Shown here: in pieces, positions 1-13,990 of the stretch | How the letters are laid out: every line of letters starts with the position of its first letter | Position numbering within the stretch: the first letter of the stretch is position 1 | Translations under genes and position numbers: made by a program | Origin: an uncultured Lachnospiraceae bacterium | Lineage (GTDB): Bacteria; Bacillota; Clostridia; Lachnospirales; Lachnospiraceae | Direction: 5' to 3' | Assembly (NCBI GenBank): GCA_947652925.1 | Contig: CANTEW010000011.1 | Coordinates: 1 to 59,229 of the forward strand | Length of the DNA: 59,229 bases | The notes under the pieces: generated by a model | What the model was told of the DNA's origin: nothing | The model's input: the letters and a program-made list of their open reading frames with translations, nothing else | Database searches by the model: none

Positions 1-333
1 CGCGGGGACAGGGAGATCTATGCCCGGAGGAAGGAGACCATCGAGCGGATCTTCGAGACTGCGAAAGAACAGCATGGGTTCCGTTATACACAATACATAG
101 GAAGAGCACGGATGGAGATGAAATCCGGGCTCACTTTTGCATGCATGGACTTAAAGAAACTGGCAAGGATCCTTGCCAGAAAGGGGCGAAGAGGACTACC
201 GTCCAAGGGATGTCCACGTATTTTAAAGAAGATACATCTCACGATAAGAGAGGTGTTGGAGTTTTGCTCTGACACCTCTCTTTGTCTACCGTCTGAGCCC
301 CCTCTCAGGAGGGGGCGGAAAGAAAGGGGGTAA
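1..333 (+). CDS. IS1182-type transposase, C-terminal part (cut by window start)
   Basis: The frame is open from the first base and ends at TAA. It reads as the end of an IS1182-family DDE transposase: an ERIF-TAKEQHGFRYTQY block carrying the last catalytic Glu region, followed by TFACMDLKKLA, a hallmark of the family's C-terminus. The tail is arginine-rich and ends in a short GCCCCCT/AGGGGGC hairpin (297-316), as IS ends often do. The N-terminal part lies outside the window, so it is unknown whether the copy is intact. The next gene begins 1 base after the stop, which suggests the IS landed in or next to the element described below. Confidence 0.75.
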   Translation, partial: RGDREIYARRKETIERIFETAKEQHGFRYTQYIGRARMEMKSGLTFACMDLKKLARILARKGRRGLPSKGCPRILKKIHLTIREVLEFCSDTSLCLPSEPPLRRGRKERG

Positions 334-334
334 T

Positions 335-1078
335 ATGGAAAAAAGGATTTTGGTCCTCATTATCTTTTGCCTTTCATTGGCTACGGCACTCATTGTCCCA
401 ATGCATGCGTATGAGGCCTTGCCACCTATGTCCACGGATATTTTTGTGGGATATGTTTTGAAAACATATTTAGTGATGGTTGCTGGATGTATTTTTTCTT
501 TTATCTGTTTTTGGGCAGTCCGGTGGGCGTGGGATACGCCTGCAAAAACTGTACTCGAATCCTGGGTGCGGCTGTCAGCTTTGCGTTTTTCGCTTTGGAG
601 ACGTTCGAAAAATATAAGTTTCATCGCTCCCCGACTGCAATGTTTTTTATTCCTTGTCCTGAAAAGGAATAATGAGTTCCTGCACCTGCCCTTGGGCAGG
701 GATGTCACCGCTCTGTCTCCTCTGGGGACGGGGACGGTATTCCGGGACAGCTGTATCTTTTATCAGTTCCAGCTTGTGCTGGCTCCTGGTCTTGACCTGG
801 ATGAAAGGGCAATGACAGAACTGCTCCGCACATACATAGCTGCGAAACTGCGCAATTTCGGGATTGCGGGGCTGGATGCAGTCTACCTGGACAGCAGGAC
901 AGGGAACTGGCTCACTGTCTACCTTGACCGGGTGGACATCGACCAGGACAGCAGCCTGCTGACTTTTGAACTGCTCTATGTGTCAGACCGCGCCTCGGCC
1001 CGGTACCTGCAGAAAGCCGTTGAAAGGGAGCGGGCAGGGGACGTCCCAGAACCCGAGGTCTACGACGATGAATCGTGA
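335..1078 (+). CDS. Membrane protein of integrated element, unknown function
   Basis: This is a 247-residue protein with two hydrophobic segments near the N-terminus (about residues 5-25 and 45-65) and a soluble remainder. A GGGGG ribosome site sits just upstream of the ATG. The stop overlaps the start of the FtsK-like gene by 11 bases, so the two are probably translationally coupled. A membrane partner ahead of an FtsK/HerA-type ATPase is common in Gram-positive conjugative and mobilizable elements, but I do not recognise this family. A role as membrane anchor for the ATPase is inference. Confidence 0.6.
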   Translation: MEKRILVLIIFCLSLATALIVPMHAYEALPPMSTDIFVGYVLKTYLVMVAGCIFSFICFWAVRWAWDTPAKTVLESWVRLSALRFSLWRRSKNISFIAPRLQCFLFLVLKRNNEFLHLPLGRDVTALSPLGTGTVFRDSCIFYQFQLVLAPGLDLDERAMTELLRTYIAAKLRNFGIAGLDAVYLDSRTGNWLTVYLDRVDIDQDSSLLTFELLYVSDRASARYLQKAVERERAGDVPEPEVYDDES

Positions 1079-1781
1079 TAGTGACGGCCTGTTTTATGCG
1101 GGGTTTGAGCAAAATGCTCTTTCCCTGGGTATCAGGCTCCCTGTAAAGGTCGATTTCCGCTCAGTGCCGCATCTGCTGATAGTGGCCCCGAGCGGGTCAG
1201 GCAAGACACATCTGCTCACTTTTATCCTGGGGCAGTTAGCCAGAAAAGACGGGGGATTGATACTCGCCGATTTTAAGGGCATTGATTTTACAGCCCTGGA
1301 CGGGTGCCGCCATTACTATAAACACAGTGCTGTGGCAGAGGCCCTCTCCCATGTTTTTGGTATCTTACAGGAACGCATGGCAGACCCACAGTCAGGGCGT
1401 AAGATACTATTCCTAGTGATCGATGAATGGAGCGGTTTTCTCTCGCTCTATCCAAAAAAACAGGAGGGGTTCAAACAGCAGCTGGCATCCATCCTGATGC
1501 TGGGCAGGGGCGTGGGGATATTTGTGATACTGGCCCTCCAGCGTGCGGATGCGGGTTATCTGACTGGCAGGGACAATTTTGGGAACTGTATCGGCCTTGG
1601 GACTCTAAGTAGGGAAAGTATCAGTATGACGTTCTCAGACCACAGAGATTCTATCATCCCAAAGGGGCGGGGAAAAGGGTATCTGGCTACAGACGGGAGG
1701 CCATTGCAGGAGATAGTCGTCCCACGGATAAGGAATATCAAAGGGACAATGGGCGTTATATGTTCAGCATTGGACGGCTGA
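1068..1781 (+). CDS. FtsK/HerA-like DNA-pumping ATPase, small form
   Basis: The 237-residue protein has a Walker A motif APSGSGKTH near residue 42, a LILADFKGIDF segment, and a Walker B-like ILFLVIDEWSGF, the order seen in FtsK/SpoIIIE/TcpA ATPases of Gram-positive conjugative elements. It lacks the usual N-terminal membrane domain; the overlapping upstream membrane protein may supply it. I chose the ATG at 1068 because it gives the 11-base overlap and sits just before the conserved part. Expected role: coupling ATPase that brings DNA to a membrane channel. At 237 residues it is shorter than typical FtsK-like coupling proteins (400 or more), so it may be a minimal or reduced form. Confidence 0.72.
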   Translation: MNRDSDGLFYAGFEQNALSLGIRLPVKVDFRSVPHLLIVAPSGSGKTHLLTFILGQLARKDGGLILADFKGIDFTALDGCRHYYKHSAVAEALSHVFGILQERMADPQSGRKILFLVIDEWSGFLSLYPKKQEGFKQQLASILMLGRGVGIFVILALQRADAGYLTGRDNFGNCIGLGTLSRESISMTFSDHRDSIIPKGRGKGYLATDGRPLQEIVVPRIRNIKGTMGVICSALDG

Positions 1782-1839
1782 CTGGGACCTGCCCGACTGT
1801 GCCGCCTGCCGGAGGCAGAAGGCACAGGGAGGGCAGGGG

Positions 1840-1865
1840 GTTCCCGGCCAGTATTACCCGGGAAC
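1840..1865 (+). other. CRESS-like replication origin stem-loop with CAGTATTAC
   Basis: GTTCCCGG (1840-1847) and CCGGGAAC (1858-1865) form a perfect 8-bp stem around the 10-base loop CCAGTATTAC. The loop holds CAGTATTAC (1849-1857), which fits the NANTATTAC nonanucleotide nicked by Rep at the rolling-circle origin of circoviruses, geminiviruses and nanoviruses; nicking would fall between TATT and AC. It lies just upstream of a gene with HUH Rep motifs, as expected. Short GGCAG/GGCAC units at 1814-1836 could be Rep-binding iterons. Function is inference from match and position. Confidence 0.72.
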
Positions 1866-1869
1866 TTCT

Positions 1870-2958
1870 GTGACTGTAACTTTTTACCACACCCCCTTAT
1901 TTTTCAAGGGGCCTGGATGAAGAAAAATATAAAGACCCAGAGTATCTTGCCGACTATCTCTGTGGACTTTGGGAAAACAGTGGAAAAGGACGTACTTCGG
2001 CTGTAGCAGTCTGTAAGAGCGCAGATGGGCTGTATCATGCGCATATGGCCCTATACGGCAACACGACAACATTAAAAAATGTTGCGAAGATATTGTGCCA
2101 GAGCCATGTTGAACCCCAATATGGAGGCAAGCAGGCACTCAGCGGATATCTCTCAAAGACTGGGATATATGCAGAAAAAGGTGAGGAGGTCCTGTCCATA
2201 AAAGGCCTCGAGAATATACAAGATGTGCAGGGGAAACGCAGTGATATACAGGTGATAGAGGAAATGCTCTTAAAAGGCTATACTCCATCCCAGATACTCA
2301 GCAGTGATATCTCATTTTACAGATTTGAAAAGATGATATTACATGCTTACGCAGACCAGCGCATTAGAGATGCGCCACAGCACAGGGATATATATACAGA
2401 GTATCATTTAGGGGGGCTGGGACAGGGAAGACTAATTTTTACAACCATTTGTGTGAGGAGTATGGGAGTGAAAATATATATATGCTGACAGATTATGATA
2501 ATAACCTGTCGGGAGGGCTTGACTCTTATATGAAAGAAGGCGCACCGGATATACTCTTTATGGATGAATTCAAGGGATTTGGTATCAGCTACAGTAAACT
2601 GCTGACCATGCTGAACGGGTATTCCCGTATGCAGACACACAGCCGGTATGTCAATACATATAATCTATGGTCAAAAGTCTATATAACATCGGTCTATCCG
2701 CCAGAACGCATCTATCAGAATATGGTATCGACGGAATACCAGGATGTTGATTCTTATCAGCAGTTCCTACGCAGGATAAATAAGATTGTATATCATTATA
2801 AGAAAGATGGGAGATATCATACATATCCCATCGACAGCACCGATCATAACGGCTATGAAGATTTAAGACGCCGGTCGGAAGATGCAGGCCGGGAAGAAAA
2901 AGACGGTTTCAAAAAGATATCTGATACGGAACAACTGGCACTACCGTTCAAGGATTAG
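1870..2958 (+). pseudogene. rep: CRESS-type Rep (HUH endonuclease-SF3 helicase), frameshifted
   Basis: One frame (about 1880-2488) encodes an endonuclease part with GLYHAHMALYG (the HUH motif, His-x-His) and GYLSK (YxxK, catalytic Tyr). A second frame (to 2958) encodes a helicase part with ILFMDEFKG (Walker B) and VYITSVYPPE (motif C). They join if one G is restored to the G6 run at 2411-2416; the repaired reading gives GGAGTGKT, the missing Walker A. No ATG precedes the HUH motif in its frame: the first is at 2045, inside the motif. A better N-terminus (FYHTPLFFKG) is seen in the GTG frame from 1870 and would need one more single-base repair near 1906-1913. The family is that of bacterial pCRESS Reps, which initiate rolling-circle replication. 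As read here it is broken. The start is uncertain. Confidence 0.75.
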
Positions 2959-2970
2959 GGGGGTGTATAT

Positions 2971-3372
2971 ATGGTATCTAAAAAAACAGATGACCTGCTG
3001 GAGCTTATGAAAAAATCGGCAGATGGACCCCGCCAGCAGTCCCCCATGGAAGCCATGGAGGGGCTGGCATGTGTATGGGACAACGTAGAATGTACGGACT
3101 ACAGCCGCATCCGGGACAGTACCGGAGAAATCTTAGAGGAACGGCTGTCCGTATGTTTTGAAGATGGAGCCGAGATATTGGTCTTGTTTTCGGATGGGGC
3201 ATACAGCTGGGGGACCTATCCAGCTATCCCCACACCGGAACAAGATACAGACATTATCCAAAAAATATATAATGGAGGTAAACAAAAATGGGTGAGGACG
3301 AGATTTTTTTTGACCCAAATGCAGGATTCAATATCCATCATGGGTTTGAATACTATGCACCCCAGCGGATAA
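2971..3372 (+). CDS. Unknown element protein
   Basis: The frame encodes 133 residues and starts 12 bases after rep behind a GGGGGG run that may serve as ribosome site. The first ~105 residues look like a real soluble protein (acidic, with SVCFEDGAEILVLFSDGAYSW). The last ~28 residues overlap the next gene by 85 bases in another frame and look like read-through, so the true 3' end may have been lost to a small indel. I do not recognise the family. Position between rep and xis marks it as element cargo or accessory replication gene. Confidence 0.45.
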   Translation: MVSKKTDDLLELMKKSADGPRQQSPMEAMEGLACVWDNVECTDYSRIRDSTGEILEERLSVCFEDGAEILVLFSDGAYSWGTYPAIPTPEQDTDIIQKIYNGGKQKWVRTRFFLTQMQDSISIMGLNTMHPSG

Positions 3373-3677
3373 AACGCATATTGAAAAAGGATTTCAACTG
3401 CCATTTAGAGAACATCTGGCAGGGCTATAAGGCCAACCGGAAGCCAGGCTATCATGAAATCTACAACCTAGTGGACGATGCCACGGGGAAGATTATCGGG
3501 AGCAAGCTCCCTCTTGACCATTTCCGGAGGGTGTTTTCCCAGATGGGCTATCCTCGCGATGATGAAAAAAGCGCTGTACATGGCAGATATCTCCGACGCA
3601 GTGAAGGGTTAGAGAGATTCCGCGAGATGGTAGAAAGAGCAAAAAAAGAAAGCCAAGAAGGACAACAAGAAGACTAA
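3288..3677 (+). CDS. Unknown element protein with lysine-rich end
   Basis: The 129-residue protein starts at an ATG 10 bases after GGAGG (3273-3277). It is basic, with HHGFEYYAPQRIKRILKKDF and a conserved-looking KLPLDHFRRVF segment, and has no motif I can name. The end runs into an A7 tract (3641-3647). With one A fewer the frame would continue into a long Lys/Ala/Thr-rich basic tail and on toward the excisionase, so the present stop may reflect a small indel. A DNA-binding role is only a guess from the basic composition. Confidence 0.5.
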   Translation: MGEDEIFFDPNAGFNIHHGFEYYAPQRIKRILKKDFNCHLENIWQGYKANRKPGYHEIYNLVDDATGKIIGSKLPLDHFRRVFSQMGYPRDDEKSAVHGRYLRRSEGLERFREMVERAKKESQEGQQED

Positions 3678-3719
3678 GAAGACCAAGAAGAAAGCCGCTA
3701 AAAGCGGAGAAAGGAGATG

Positions 3720-3783
3720 TCCTGACAATACCGATAATGTACTGTATTGTATCGTAATGCCGCGTCGTAAGCGATTGTCAGGA
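3720..3783. repeat. Inverted repeat upstream of excisionase
   Basis: TCCTGACAAT (3720-3729) and ATTGTCAGGA (3774-3783) are perfect 10-base inverted copies 44 bases apart. A further ATTGTCAA occurs at about 3802. They sit directly before the excisionase gene, where Tn916-type elements keep regulatory and recombination sites. A repressor or Xis/Int arm-type site is possible; nothing here decides between them. Confidence 0.5.
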
Positions 3784-3822
3784 AAAGATAAAAATATCCG
3801 TATTGTCAAGTCCATGTATCAG

Positions 3823-4017
3823 ATGAACAAAACAAAAACAAGGGAAACAGAAAAACAGATAGCAGTTGATATTGAAAAACTGGCGGCCATGTTGTCATGC
3901 GGCCATGCAACCGCACGGAAGATAGGGGAAGATGCTGGAGCGCGTATAAATATAGGCAGACGTGTATTATATTCTGTAGAAAAAGTTGAGCGATATATAT
4001 ATTTGATCTCACAATAA
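3823..4017 (+). CDS. xis: Excisionase (MerR-like helix-turn-helix)
   Basis: This is a protein of about 64 residues whose core VDIEKLAAMLSCGHATARKI is the winged-helix start of Tn916-type excisionases, followed by INIGRRVLYSVEKVERYI, the wing and second helix. It lies just before an integrase remnant in the same direction, the standard xis-int order. Excisionase bends DNA at attachment sites and directs integrase toward excision. I took the ATG at 3823; 3814 is equally possible, and neither has a clear ribosome site. The frame stays open upstream to the previous gene, so the start is not certain. Confidence 0.7.
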   Translation: MNKTKTRETEKQIAVDIEKLAAMLSCGHATARKIGEDAGARINIGRRVLYSVEKVERYIYLISQ

Positions 4018-4104
4018 GAAATCAGACTTTTATGTTCCCATCCCAGTGTATCTATGTTATGATATATCCATAGACGCAATACGCCATGGGGACACAGAGA
4101 AAAG

Positions 4105-4639
4105 ACTGAAAGTTGGCACAGGTGTGCGGTGCGGGGAACTGATAGGGCTGACCTGGACTGATGTGGATATGAAAAAAAGACAGTCAGCATAGACCATCAA
4201 CTCATCTATAAAAATACAGGAAGTGTACCGCGCGTTTAAAGCACAACGCGAGTTAGACTTTTTACAAGGAAAGAGCAGGGATATTGACGTGGACGGCTAT
4301 ACAGATTTTATCTTTACAGCAAAGACAGGACGGCCATTGATGCCGAGTGCAGTCAACAGCATACTCTACAATATCGTGGATGCGTATAATAAAGCGGAAC
4401 TGCAAAGAGCCAAGGGACAACACCGGAAAGCGGAACTGCTCCCAAGATTCTCAGCCCACGTCACCCGCCACACCGCTTGTACCCGGATGGCTGAGAGCGG
4501 CATGGATATAAAAGTCTTGCAGTATATCATGGGACATTCTGATATAGAGATGACCATGCAGGTGTATAACCACATCACAGATATGTCCCGGGTAGAAAAA
4601 GAGATAGAAAAACTGGACAGGATGACAGTCAACCTCTGA
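4105..4639 (+). pseudogene. int: Tn916-type tyrosine integrase, N-terminally deleted and frameshifted
   Basis: Only the catalytic domain remains. The first piece reads VGTGVRCGELIGLTW with the first catalytic Arg; the second (4223-4639) holds HVTRHTACTRMAE (His-x-x-Arg), GHSDIEMTMQVYNH (His and the nucleophile Tyr). The pieces are out of frame by one base at an A7 tract (4172-4178); eight As would join them as MKKKTVSIDHQLIYK. The arm-binding and core-binding domains (about 180 residues) are absent between xis and 4105. The element therefore cannot integrate or excise by itself. Even with the A-run corrected, the N-terminal deletion remains, so this is real decay. Confidence 0.8.
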
Positions 4640-11312: not shown

Positions 11313-12008
11313 ATGGATATATCCGGTTTTACCAAAACTACCCTGCTGGACTACCCCGGCCGGATCGCTGCCACCCTCTTTCTGGGGGGCTGTAACTTCC
11401 GCTGTCCCTTCTGCCACAACTCGTCCCTTGTCCTGGCACCGGGAGAAGGCCCTTCTTATCCCCTGGAGGACATCCTATATTTTTTAAAAAAACGCCGGGG
11501 TATCCTGGAAGGCGTGTGTATCAGCGGCGGCGAACCCACATTAAACCCAGGGCTCAGATCTCTGTGTGAGAGCATCAAAGCCCTGGGTTATCCTATCAAA
11601 TTAGACACAAACGGCACAAACCCCGGCCTTCTGCAGGAATTGGCCGGGGAACATCTGATCGATCATATCGCCATGGATATCAAGTCTCCACCTGCACATT
11701 ATGCAAAACTCGCAGGGGTGGAAGATGCTGCGCTGGATAAGATCGACCGATCCGTCCAGTGGCTCCTGTCGGATCCCCTGCCCTATGAATTTAGGACTAC
11801 GGTCGTCCGGGAACTGCATACAGAAGAGGATCTGATCCAGATCTCAAAGTGGATCGCCGGCGCTGCACAGTATTTTCTGCAGGCATACCGGGACAGTCCC
11901 CAAGTCATGCAGCGCGGCTATTCCGCCTGCTCGAAAGAAGAGATGGGCCATTATCTAAGATCGGTCCGCCTTCTCATTCCGTCTGCCCAGCTTCGGGGGG
12001 TAGATTAA
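11313..12008 (+). CDS. Anaerobic ribonucleotide reductase activase-like radical SAM protein (NrdG2 type)
   Basis: 231 residues beginning MDISGFTKTTLLDYPGR, the signature start of the NrdG2 subfamily, with the radical-SAM cluster CNFRCPFCHN (Cys-x3-Cys-x2-Cys). It cleaves S-adenosylmethionine to set a glycyl radical, by family on anaerobic ribonucleotide reductase; no nrdD gene is in the window, so the partner is elsewhere. The start follows AAAGGA. The last 54 bases overlap the end of the opposing gene. Confidence 0.88.
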   Translation: MDISGFTKTTLLDYPGRIAATLFLGGCNFRCPFCHNSSLVLAPGEGPSYPLEDILYFLKKRRGILEGVCISGGEPTLNPGLRSLCESIKALGYPIKLDTNGTNPGLLQELAGEHLIDHIAMDIKSPPAHYAKLAGVEDAALDKIDRSVQWLLSDPLPYEFRTTVVRELHTEEDLIQISKWIAGAAQYFLQAYRDSPQVMQRGYSACSKEEMGHYLRSVRLLIPSAQLRGVD

Positions 12009-13919
12009 CCGGTACCAATACCCAAAGCATGCCTGTCTATTGCTTTTTCGCCTGGCACATTTAAAGTTGTGGAAGCCGAACATATCTGCCATGAACTTTT
12101 CCTGTTTCTGGTACATGCCTGGGACGCCCAGGATGTACTGGGAATTCCTGGCGACCTTTGCCAGGAGCAGATGGCCAAACATCTGATATCCATGCTGGAC
12201 GAACCGGTTATTGCGCATCCCCTGATCCCTGGGATCCAGGAACCGCAGATCTTCTATGGAGATCTTCCTGCAGTCCTCCAGGACTCCATCTGTAAACGGA
12301 CAAAATCTGTCTTCCCTCTGCGCGGCAGTCCCCTCCACATCTTCTGCCTCCATCTCCGCTCCTATGTATCTTTCCCTCTGCGACACTTCTCCAGCGGCCA
12401 TATCCTCTTCTGCACGTTCCTCCATGACCGCACCTTCTAGGATATGGTCTTCTATGTGGTCGCTTTCCATCTGCCCCCTCTCCATGTATGCACTCTCATC
12501 GAGACCACTCCCTCTGCCATCCTGTGGGAGTCTTCCTTCCGTATCAGGGATGGGTACTGTGGTGTCCAGCACTTCTGGAAGTCCTTCTCCTTCCGGTAAC
12601 TCCCATTGTCCTGTCCCTCCTGCGCTCCCGCGCTCTTCCATCTCTTGCCGCCGCTCTGCGGGTCCTGGTGCGGGCCATCCCTCTTGAGGTCCTGACATTT
12701 CTGCCAGTCCCCTCTGCTCTGGCCTTTCCGCTGCGGGACTTTCCTCCTGCAGAGACAAGATCCTGCCTGATCCGCTTCCTCCTGGCAGCTCTGCGGATCT
12801 CCCTCCAGATCCCTGACCATCTGATACGGGGCCTTCCATACCCTTTGGGGGCATCCTTCGCTCCTCCCGGATTCCTCTCTCTCCCACACTATCCTGGATG
12901 ACCGTCCCCACACCATCCTTTTCCTGTGCCCGGATCTCTCCCTGGGCTTTTATCCCTGCGGCTGTCCGCTGTATCTCTGGCTGCTGGATCTCCTCCTGTT
13001 GCACCTCTCCCTGCACGATCTCCTCCTGTAAGACCGCCGTCTGCTGTATCTCTGGCTGCAGGGACTCCGCTTGCTCGATCTCTGGCTGCTGGGACTCCGC
13101 CTGCTCGATCTCTTCCTGCCGGATCTCTGTCTGTTCTATCTCTGTCTGCAGGGACTCTGCCTGCTCGATCTCCTCCTGTTCCATCTCCACTCGTGGGATC
13201 TCTTCCTGCTCGATCTCCTCTTGTGGGATCTCCGCCCGCTGCATCTCTGCCTGCAGGGGTTCTGTCCGTGGTATCTCCTCCTGCCCCATCTCCGTCGGCG
13301 GTATCTCTTCCTGCAGGGACTCCGCTCGTGGGAACTCTCCTCCTATCTCCTCCGGGTTCCCGGCTTCCAAGGTCTGCGGCTCCGCCCCTGTCTCCTGCAG
13401 TCTTTCTCCCATCCTTGTGTCCGCCATCGCCGGAGTTTCAGGCTCAGGCTGCCTTTGCTGCTCTTCTGCTCCCTGATCTTCTATGACCCCAGGTCCTTCA
13501 ACAGCCGCTCTTCTCCGTATATTTCTTTCATCCGGCTGGAAATTTTCCATCTTCATGGGTTCATCATCCCACTGTGTCCCATACATGGTCTCATCATCCC
13601 CGCGGAATATGACCCCGCTCAGATCATGCAGGCTGTACCTGGCATCTCCCATCTCATTTCTCAGAGATACCAGCTGCTCCTGCACGATCCCCATCTTCAC
13701 CGGACATTCGGCCAAGAGACTGCCCTTTAACAGCCCTTCTTCCCGTTTAAAACCATAGACCTTGCAAGTCCCGTTCCCATCTCTGCAGACCCCCTTTAGC
13801 GAGATCTGCATACTACATGTATTCCCTCTGGCTTCTACCTTGATAAATCCCCGGTTCCCGGCCTTTTTCCCATTCTCGTATTGATATACATAAGAAACAA
13901 AGCGTCGATATGTCTGCAT
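11955..13919 (-). CDS. Large protein with Glu/Gln pentapeptide repeats (DUF6128-like ends)
   Basis: 654 residues. The N-terminal ~110 (MQTYRRFVSYVYQYENGKK...) and the C-terminal ~70 (HLLLAKVARNSQYILGVPG) are ordered and resemble the two halves of a Lachnospiraceae protein known as DUF6128. Between them lies ~400 residues of low-complexity Glu/Gln/Pro/Gly sequence, including a long run of degenerate 5-residue units of the type QEEI-x. Start at 13919, not 13958, because AGGAGG lies 7 bases before this ATG. No signal peptide; function unknown. The repeat is likely variable in length between strains. Confidence 0.8.
   Translation of the reverse strand: MQTYRRFVSYVYQYENGKKAGNRGFIKVEARGNTCSMQISLKGVCRDGNGTCKVYGFKREEGLLKGSLLAECPVKMGIVQEQLVSLRNEMGDARYSLHDLSGVIFRGDDETMYGTQWDDEPMKMENFQPDERNIRRRAAVEGPGVIEDQGAEEQQRQPEPETPAMADTRMGERLQETGAEPQTLEAGNPEEIGGEFPRAESLQEEIPPTEMGQEEIPRTEPLQAEMQRAEIPQEEIEQEEIPRVEMEQEEIEQAESLQTEIEQTEIRQEEIEQAESQQPEIEQAESLQPEIQQTAVLQEEIVQGEVQQEEIQQPEIQRTAAGIKAQGEIRAQEKDGVGTVIQDSVGERGIREERRMPPKGMEGPVSDGQGSGGRSAELPGGSGSGRILSLQEESPAAERPEQRGLAEMSGPQEGWPAPGPAERRQEMEERGSAGGTGQWELPEGEGLPEVLDTTVPIPDTEGRLPQDGRGSGLDESAYMERGQMESDHIEDHILEGAVMEERAEEDMAAGEVSQRERYIGAEMEAEDVEGTAAQREDRFCPFTDGVLEDCRKISIEDLRFLDPRDQGMRNNRFVQHGYQMFGHLLLAKVARNSQYILGVPGMYQKQEKFMADMFGFHNFKCARRKSNRQACFGYWYRLIYPPKLGRRNEKADRS
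12960..13345. repeat. Degenerate 15-base tandem repeats coding Glu/Gln pentapeptides
   Basis: Read on the minus strand, units of about 15 bases (CAGGAGGAGATC-like) code for QEEIx or EQAES-type pentapeptides. Units are imperfect. Expected source of slippage and length change. Confidence 0.75.
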
Positions 13920-13990
13920 CCAAAACCTCCTGGCTATCCTATTTGGCCCCATCACCATTATATGGAAGCCGCTGTTTCAATATGCATGGA

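Follow-up and report, generated by a model that had tools for sequence, protein, structure and literature searches.

A candidate virus-type origin hairpin beside a broken Rep gene in a Lachnospiraceae element remnant, and its linkage to related Rep genes

Results

A hairpin and a broken Rep gene in an element remnant

The stretch analyzed here (the window) is the whole of contig C11 (CANTEW010000011.1; 59,229 nt) from the 2.9 Mb genome of an uncultured Lachnospiraceae bacterium. Its first 4.6 kb are occupied by the remnant of an element in which a hairpin sits between a FtsK/TcpA-like gene and a broken gene for a replication initiator protein (Rep; Table 1). The hairpin loop CCAGTATTAC (1848–1857) contains the nonanucleotide CAGTATTAC (1849–1857), which belongs to the NANTATTAC class. 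The bare nonamer is unremarkable in the window (3 matches vs 3.71 expected from shuffles), and the weight therefore rests on the stem, the position and the relatives of the locus. A perfect stem of at least 7 bp around NANTATTAC occurs once in the 118,458 nt of both strands, a single-strand DNA fold of positions 1790–1900 gave z = -5.1, and the hairpin aligns in position with those of two related loci, L013 and L014.

The window Rep gene is split between two frames. HUH motif II (YHAHM, 2033–2047) and a motif III with one tyrosine (YLSK, 2147–2158) share the first, ILFMDEFKG (2551–2577) lies in the other, and the frame change disrupts the Walker A region while Walker B is kept. The first piece is 65–66% identical to the Reps of L013–L015 (residues 11–201 of P0001), three Lachnospiraceae loci that are the nearest in Rep among the named ones, and a profile of relatives matches 2416–2937 at 8.1e-65. 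Alignment to L013 and L014 revealed that more than 100 nt are missing between the origin and the nuclease domain, so that the window copy has lost its start codon and motif I together with most of the repeats that lie ahead of the gene in these relatives. Positions 1880–1912, first taken as motif I, were rejected as such because this alignment shows them to be non-coding DNA; the frame that seemingly reaches up to 1880 is relict non-coding DNA. The same genome contains no second match.

Because the Rep start and motif I are missing, the frame is broken and the integrase is truncated, the window copy reads as a fossil in which the origin has outlasted its initiator, and it is not expected to yield an active Rep. 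A preliminary description of this DNA had proposed a replicating element with its full origin logic kept, a proposal that finds no support in view of these losses. In speaking of motifs seen "after repair", it had rightly recognized a broken gene and had missed the 5' cut relative to L013 and L014.

Relatives of the window Rep

A search with the first Rep piece matched 11 of 299 genomes of the window's family, and a profile of 11 relatives found matches in 45 of 393 genomes from the order and in 6 of 398 sampled across the phylum, the source genome being included in each count. This profile aligned with the Rep of porcine circovirus 2 (PCV2; 5e-20) and a redondovirus Rep (3.8e-18) over both domains, and the families Viral_Rep and RNA_helicase matched 7 and 8 of the 11 relatives, respectively (E ≤ 0.1). 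H66, H68, Y103 and K106 are invariant among the 11, in which the motif I region and Walker A are also present. Motif III reads Y..K in 11/11 relatives and YLSK in the window; the YLxH of the pCRESS4-8 supergroup was not found. An AlphaFold model of the L014 Rep (predicted local distance difference test, pLDDT, 82.9; predicted template modeling score, pTM, 0.56) gave its best matches to a vientovirus Rep (1.1e-9) and the PCV2 ATPase domain. Scans of the viral_contigs database returned no relative.

The hairpin is linked to the Rep gene

We searched for hairpins by one rule: a NANTATTAC-class nonamer, a stem of at least 7 bp, and a location at most 800 nt upstream of Rep on the sense strand. A rule-conforming hairpin was found in 37 of 46 loci, or in 36 of 45 without the window, which was itself chosen for its hairpin and is counted among the 46. 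The loci are the best-scoring of their searches, 30 of the 60 places found with the order profile having become loci. Omitted before counting were L001, L048 and L052 (the window again), L007 (the same place as L016), and L050 and L051 (weak partial matches with no hairpin there); three near-identical pairs (L014/L015, L020/L021 and L036/L037) stand inside the 46.

The controls were nearly empty. No locus had a hairpin upstream on the antisense strand (0/46), dinucleotide shuffles produced 2 in 9,200, permuted cores gave at most 1 of 46 loci, and Rep bodies together with downstream DNA, 218,162 nt in all, contained none. In a comparison set from other rolling-circle families (21 Rep_trans and 3 Rep_OBD loci), 1/24 had a hairpin anywhere; this one, at the Rep_OBD locus L102, has a 7-bp stem and a 15-nt loop and was taken as chance. 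With the rule fixed beforehand and unchanged, a hold-out set of 12 previously unused places (7 strong and 5 weak matches) yielded hairpins in 5 of the 7 strong places, one with TAATATTAC and one with AAGTATTAC. The linkage between hairpin and Rep is thus real and extends well beyond the window.

The nonamer is nearly always NAGTATTAC, and the stem sequences differ between loci. Across 52 Reps, including those of plasmid p4M and five inoviruses that are counted apart from the 46 loci, the loop carried TAGTATTAC in 31, CAGTATTAC in 5, AAGTATTAC in 3, and TACTATTAC and TAATATTAC in 1 each, with no hairpin by the rule in 11. When the Reps were clustered at 90% identity, 39 of 49 clusters had the hairpin, and its bearers fall in both large clades of the midpoint-rooted Rep tree, where p4M forms a very long branch. 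Observed directly are thus the linkage of hairpin and Rep, its strand and position, the variation of the stems around a constant loop, the homology of the Reps and the gene order described below. The preliminary description had reported a stem-loop of this class beside Rep motifs and had placed the protein among HUH-SF3 Reps (SF3, superfamily 3 helicase), and on both counts our results agree with it. It had named close homologues without such a hairpin upstream as a refutation; most close homologues do have one.

At one locus, L107 (G319:C56:7000-15000), there are two oppositely oriented Rep genes of this group, one accompanied by an AAGTATTAC hairpin and the other by a TAATATTAC hairpin; genome G319 has five matches in total.

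Short repeats often follow the stem

In many loci, the 3' side of the stem is closely followed by a tandem pair of 6–7 nt repeats, and further copies occur in either orientation before Rep is reached. The repeat unit is specific to the element (TGTGAC, GGGACA, TGTCGCA, TGTTCCA and others). A tandem pair at the stem edge was found in 25/41 loci compared with 570/4,100 shuffles, and one hexamer was over-repeated (p < 0.05) in 19/41 loci. L013 and L014 both have TGTGAC twice at the position matching the repeats of the window. Circoviruses likewise carry hexamer repeats beside the stem.

Gene order and neighborhood

Table 1. Features of the element remnant and its left edge in the window.
Feature	Positions	Strand	Evidence or remark
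DDE transposase end at the contig edge, probably outside the element	1..333	+	PF13751, E 4e-8, above cut-off
ORF (open reading frame), 247 aa, no family	335..1078	+	no match in wider loci
FtsK/SpoIIIE-like ATPase, TcpA-like coupling protein, 237 aa, open frame	1068..1781	+	PF01580, 25.5 bits (cut-off 24)
Candidate origin hairpin, perfect 8-bp stem	1840..1865	+	arms 1840-1847 / 1858-1865
Two imperfect repeat units, TGTGAC and TGTAAC, directly 3' of the stem	1869..1880	+	
Approximate junction of the >100-nt stretch present in L013/L014 and missing here	1908..1909	+	alignment; exact position ambiguous
Rep piece 1, nuclease domain beginning past motif I and extending about as far as the Walker A region	1916..2421	+	
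Rep piece 2, other frame, helicase domain with ILFMDEFKG	2449..2958	+	
ORF, 133 aa, no family assigned	2971..3372	+	
ORF, 129 aa, no family assigned	3288..3677	+	
Small protein, weak helix-turn-helix/DUF6462 match, possible excisionase	3757..4017	+	PF20063, 23.5 bits, below cut-off 27.1
Tyrosine integrase, C-terminal part only	4223..4639	+	PF00589, E 1.3e-19, profile positions 90-170 of 172

In 20 loci examined over a wider range, TcpA usually comes first, followed by the hairpin, Rep and integrase. All but one of them have the hairpin (19/20). A TcpA-like gene precedes Rep in 14/20, and an integrase follows it on the same strand in 16/20; both were sought by phmmer with our own seeds, which makes the absences soft. 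Wherever TcpA is there, the hairpin lies inside or at the edge of the TcpA–Rep gap (14/14). The window has the TcpA-like gene, Rep and integrase in the same compact order, though its Rep and integrase are broken. The 247-aa ORF occupies the slot in which L013 and L014 carry a different small ORF ahead of TcpA, and the left end of the element is not visible because the contig edge cuts it off at the transposase end. Judged by eye from the ORF list, the genes downstream of the element look ordinary, one of them being Hsp20-like.

Some elements look smaller: that of L065 and the second of two in L063 seem to contain little beyond a regulator, the hairpin, Rep and integrase. The two L063 elements are consecutive on one contig (4752–11632), each with a hairpin, Rep and integrase and the first with TcpA, and their Reps come from the two different clades. 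The L014 integrase ends near a tRNA-Lys gene. An 11-nt word from the attachment-site search at this locus was taken as chance. Beside the same element, L014 has three direct repeats with 101-nt spacing (1605–1841).

Elsewhere in the window, a 667-aa minus-strand ORF (11955–13958) contains a long low-complexity stretch of EIEQ/EIPQ-like repeats.

A plasmid and filamentous phages share the arrangement

Plasmid p4M was the sole match to three queries among 72,556 plasmid records, and its Rep is, among plasmids, the nearest to those studied here. Read by eye, the p4M sequence separating the FtsK and RepA genes includes an 8-bp stem whose loop contains TAGTGTTAC, and two copies of GTACCA come directly behind the stem; the p4M Rep contains Walker A and no HxH triplet.

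Six inovirus records matched among 50,697 phage records, namely PQ006154 and the five described next. Five Bajarodino inoviruses encode Reps that are 41–48% identical to the L029 Rep, all with Walker A (5/5). TAGTATTAC was located upstream of Rep in 5/5 records read, with a perfect stem in four and, as judged by eye, one mismatch in the fifth. These five (L054–L058: PQ006165, PQ006124, PQ006138, PQ006121 and PQ006184) are filamentous phages from rodent faeces.

Discussion

We interpret the remnant as a decayed integrative mobilizable element (IME) with an initiation module of the kind found in viruses with circular, Rep-encoding single-stranded (CRESS) DNA, comprising a HUH-SF3 Rep, its cognate NAGTATTAC hairpin and short element-specific repeats, which in intact relatives would act by a rolling-circle mechanism. 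We assign this interpretation a probability of about 85%. Judged from sequence, the best reading of the hairpin is a putative rolling-circle origin of the circo-/nanovirus type. In intact relatives, the integrase would excise the element as a circle, Rep would bind the repeats beside the stem, the hairpin would extrude, and the motif III tyrosine would nick the nonamer between T7 and A8. Unwinding of the DNA would fall to the SF3 domain, host polymerase would drive the rolling circle, and the nicked strand may pass to the TcpA-like protein for transfer via a helper element. Viral Reps cut at TATT↓AC (table in PMC7826260; statements on the literature here and below refer to the available parts of the papers cited), and by analogy the nick in the window hairpin would be expected at 1855/1856.

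Several results weigh against this interpretation. Neither of the two window Rep pieces has a Rep family match in Pfam, NCBIfam, PHROGs or the PDB, and the window repeats alone are not significant in the shuffle test (entered there as L002). The pTM of 0.56 leaves the domain arrangement of the modeled Rep unsure, and no attachment repeats were found for L014. Nine of the 46 loci (L004, L010, L012, L020, L021, L024, L035, L039 and L045) have no hairpin within 800 nt. Among them, L020 and L021, whose Reps are near-identical, have a hairpin at a similar place, some 110 nt ahead of the Rep match, but its loop is TAATGATTCC, which may be an altered recognition sequence. In L012, a GAGTATTAC hairpin lies 1,292 nt upstream, and L024 offered only 420 nt of upstream DNA to search. 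In the hold-out set, two of the seven strong places (L108 and L109) lacked the hairpin, as did all five weaker, more distant matches. From the split between 5/7 strong and 0/5 weak places it follows that the origin accompanies this Rep group and not every distant SF3 match. Finally, nicking, repeat binding, excision, replication and transfer are steps that we infer.

The most serious alternative is that the hairpin chiefly serves as a transfer origin, with Rep acting there as a relaxase and the element not maintaining itself as a plasmid. A TcpA-like gene directly precedes the hairpin in 14 of the 20 wider loci, and reviews of IMEs class such Reps as putative relaxases (PMC5357655, PMC5704250). 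However, p4M and the inoviruses, which are not integrated mobilizable elements, share the arrangement, and the phmmer search found no TcpA in 6 of the 20 wider loci. We regard transfer as the main role as possible but clearly the less probable explanation. Replication and transfer are not mutually exclusive roles, and a replication origin of the proposed type may perhaps also serve in transfer.

An integrated CRESS virus or inovirus prophage would equally account for a virus-like Rep and origin, and inoviruses do carry homologous Reps and hairpins. Yet the element has a TcpA-like gene and an integrase, and Pfam searches linked none of nine ORF products from positions 1–4639 to a family of capsid or phage structural proteins; PHROGs gave FtsK-like, integrase and weak matches and no structural match for eight of these products, the left end of the element being cut by the contig edge. 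A prophage is accordingly improbable. Still less likely is a transcription terminator or other regulatory hairpin between TcpA and Rep: the intergenic placement would suit it, whereas a constant nonamer loop within freely varying stems would not be expected, and no T run follows the stem in the loci displayed. That the window hairpin is a chance match, as the ordinary frequency of the bare nonamer might suggest, is hardly credible given 37/46 loci vs 2/9,200 shuffles and the aligned position shared with L013 and L014.

The proposed mobilizable element, with its CRESS-type module, can be placed among known systems. In streptococci, mobilizable elements with TcpA and a Viral_Rep (PF02407) protein are known, two being listed (PMC5357655, PMC5704250). 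Like the window, they have a TcpA-like gene, a Rep with Viral_Rep and helicase domains, a small gene and a tyrosine integrase in compact order; the accessible descriptions of them, which are the sole basis of this comparison, mention no hairpin or nonanucleotide. Against these two elements stand the many loci found here in the order of the window. HUH-SF3 Reps in integrated bacterial elements are likewise known already (PMC6668415). The p4M-like Reps (pCRESS1-3), which belong to integrated and extrachromosomal plasmids, resemble ours in occurring in integrated elements and in a motif III other than YLxH, and differ in that p4M's own loop is TAGTGTTAC. In the main text of that paper, as available, the terms "nonanucleotide", "NANTATTAC" and "stem-loop" do not occur.

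Circovirus and nanovirus origins have AAGTATTAC or TAGTATTAC in a loop of 10–13 nt on a stem of 9–11 bp and varying sequence (PMC7826260). The hairpins described here share such a nonamer and the variable stem, but they are found in bacterial hosts and integrated elements with TcpA and integrase and without a capsid gene seen. The Bajarodino inoviruses share a homologous Rep with Walker A and the upstream TAGTATTAC, but have filamentous-phage genes and no TcpA–integrase order. In one phytoplasma DNA, the canonical nonamer was searched for without success, and a variant with 8 conserved nucleotides was described (PMC3154185). We found no report of such an origin in bacterial mobilizable elements or inoviruses in the accessible portion of the open-access literature. 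The remnant belongs, in decayed form, to the known kind of Rep–TcpA element; what is new is the conserved origin of virus type.

Because many relatives in other bacteria have the hairpin beside a matching Rep, signal and enzyme look like one old module common to bacterial elements and viruses. A bolder and rather doubtful extension is that the NAGTATTAC hairpin and its repeats serve as a single origin for both replication and conjugative transfer across a large class of bacterial mobile elements, were passed to filamentous phages together with the same Rep, and were ancestral to the circo-/nanovirus origin, so that the viral origin would have begun as a bacterial transfer origin.

The findings bear on three questions. 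PMC5704250 gives the heading "An Unexplored World" to the question of how Viral_Rep mobilizable elements are maintained once excised, and a concrete candidate origin can now be offered for them. Inovirus Reps were said to have no helicase domain (PMC6668415); contrary to this statement, HUH-SF3 Reps with Walker A occur in inoviruses. Lastly, a bacterial-plasmid ancestry of eukaryotic CRESS-DNA viruses has so far, in the literature as accessible, been argued from Rep sequences. The shared nonamer, strand and neighboring repeats in bacterial elements add a second character to this idea, which becomes directly testable through the nicking of a virus-type loop by a bacterial Rep.
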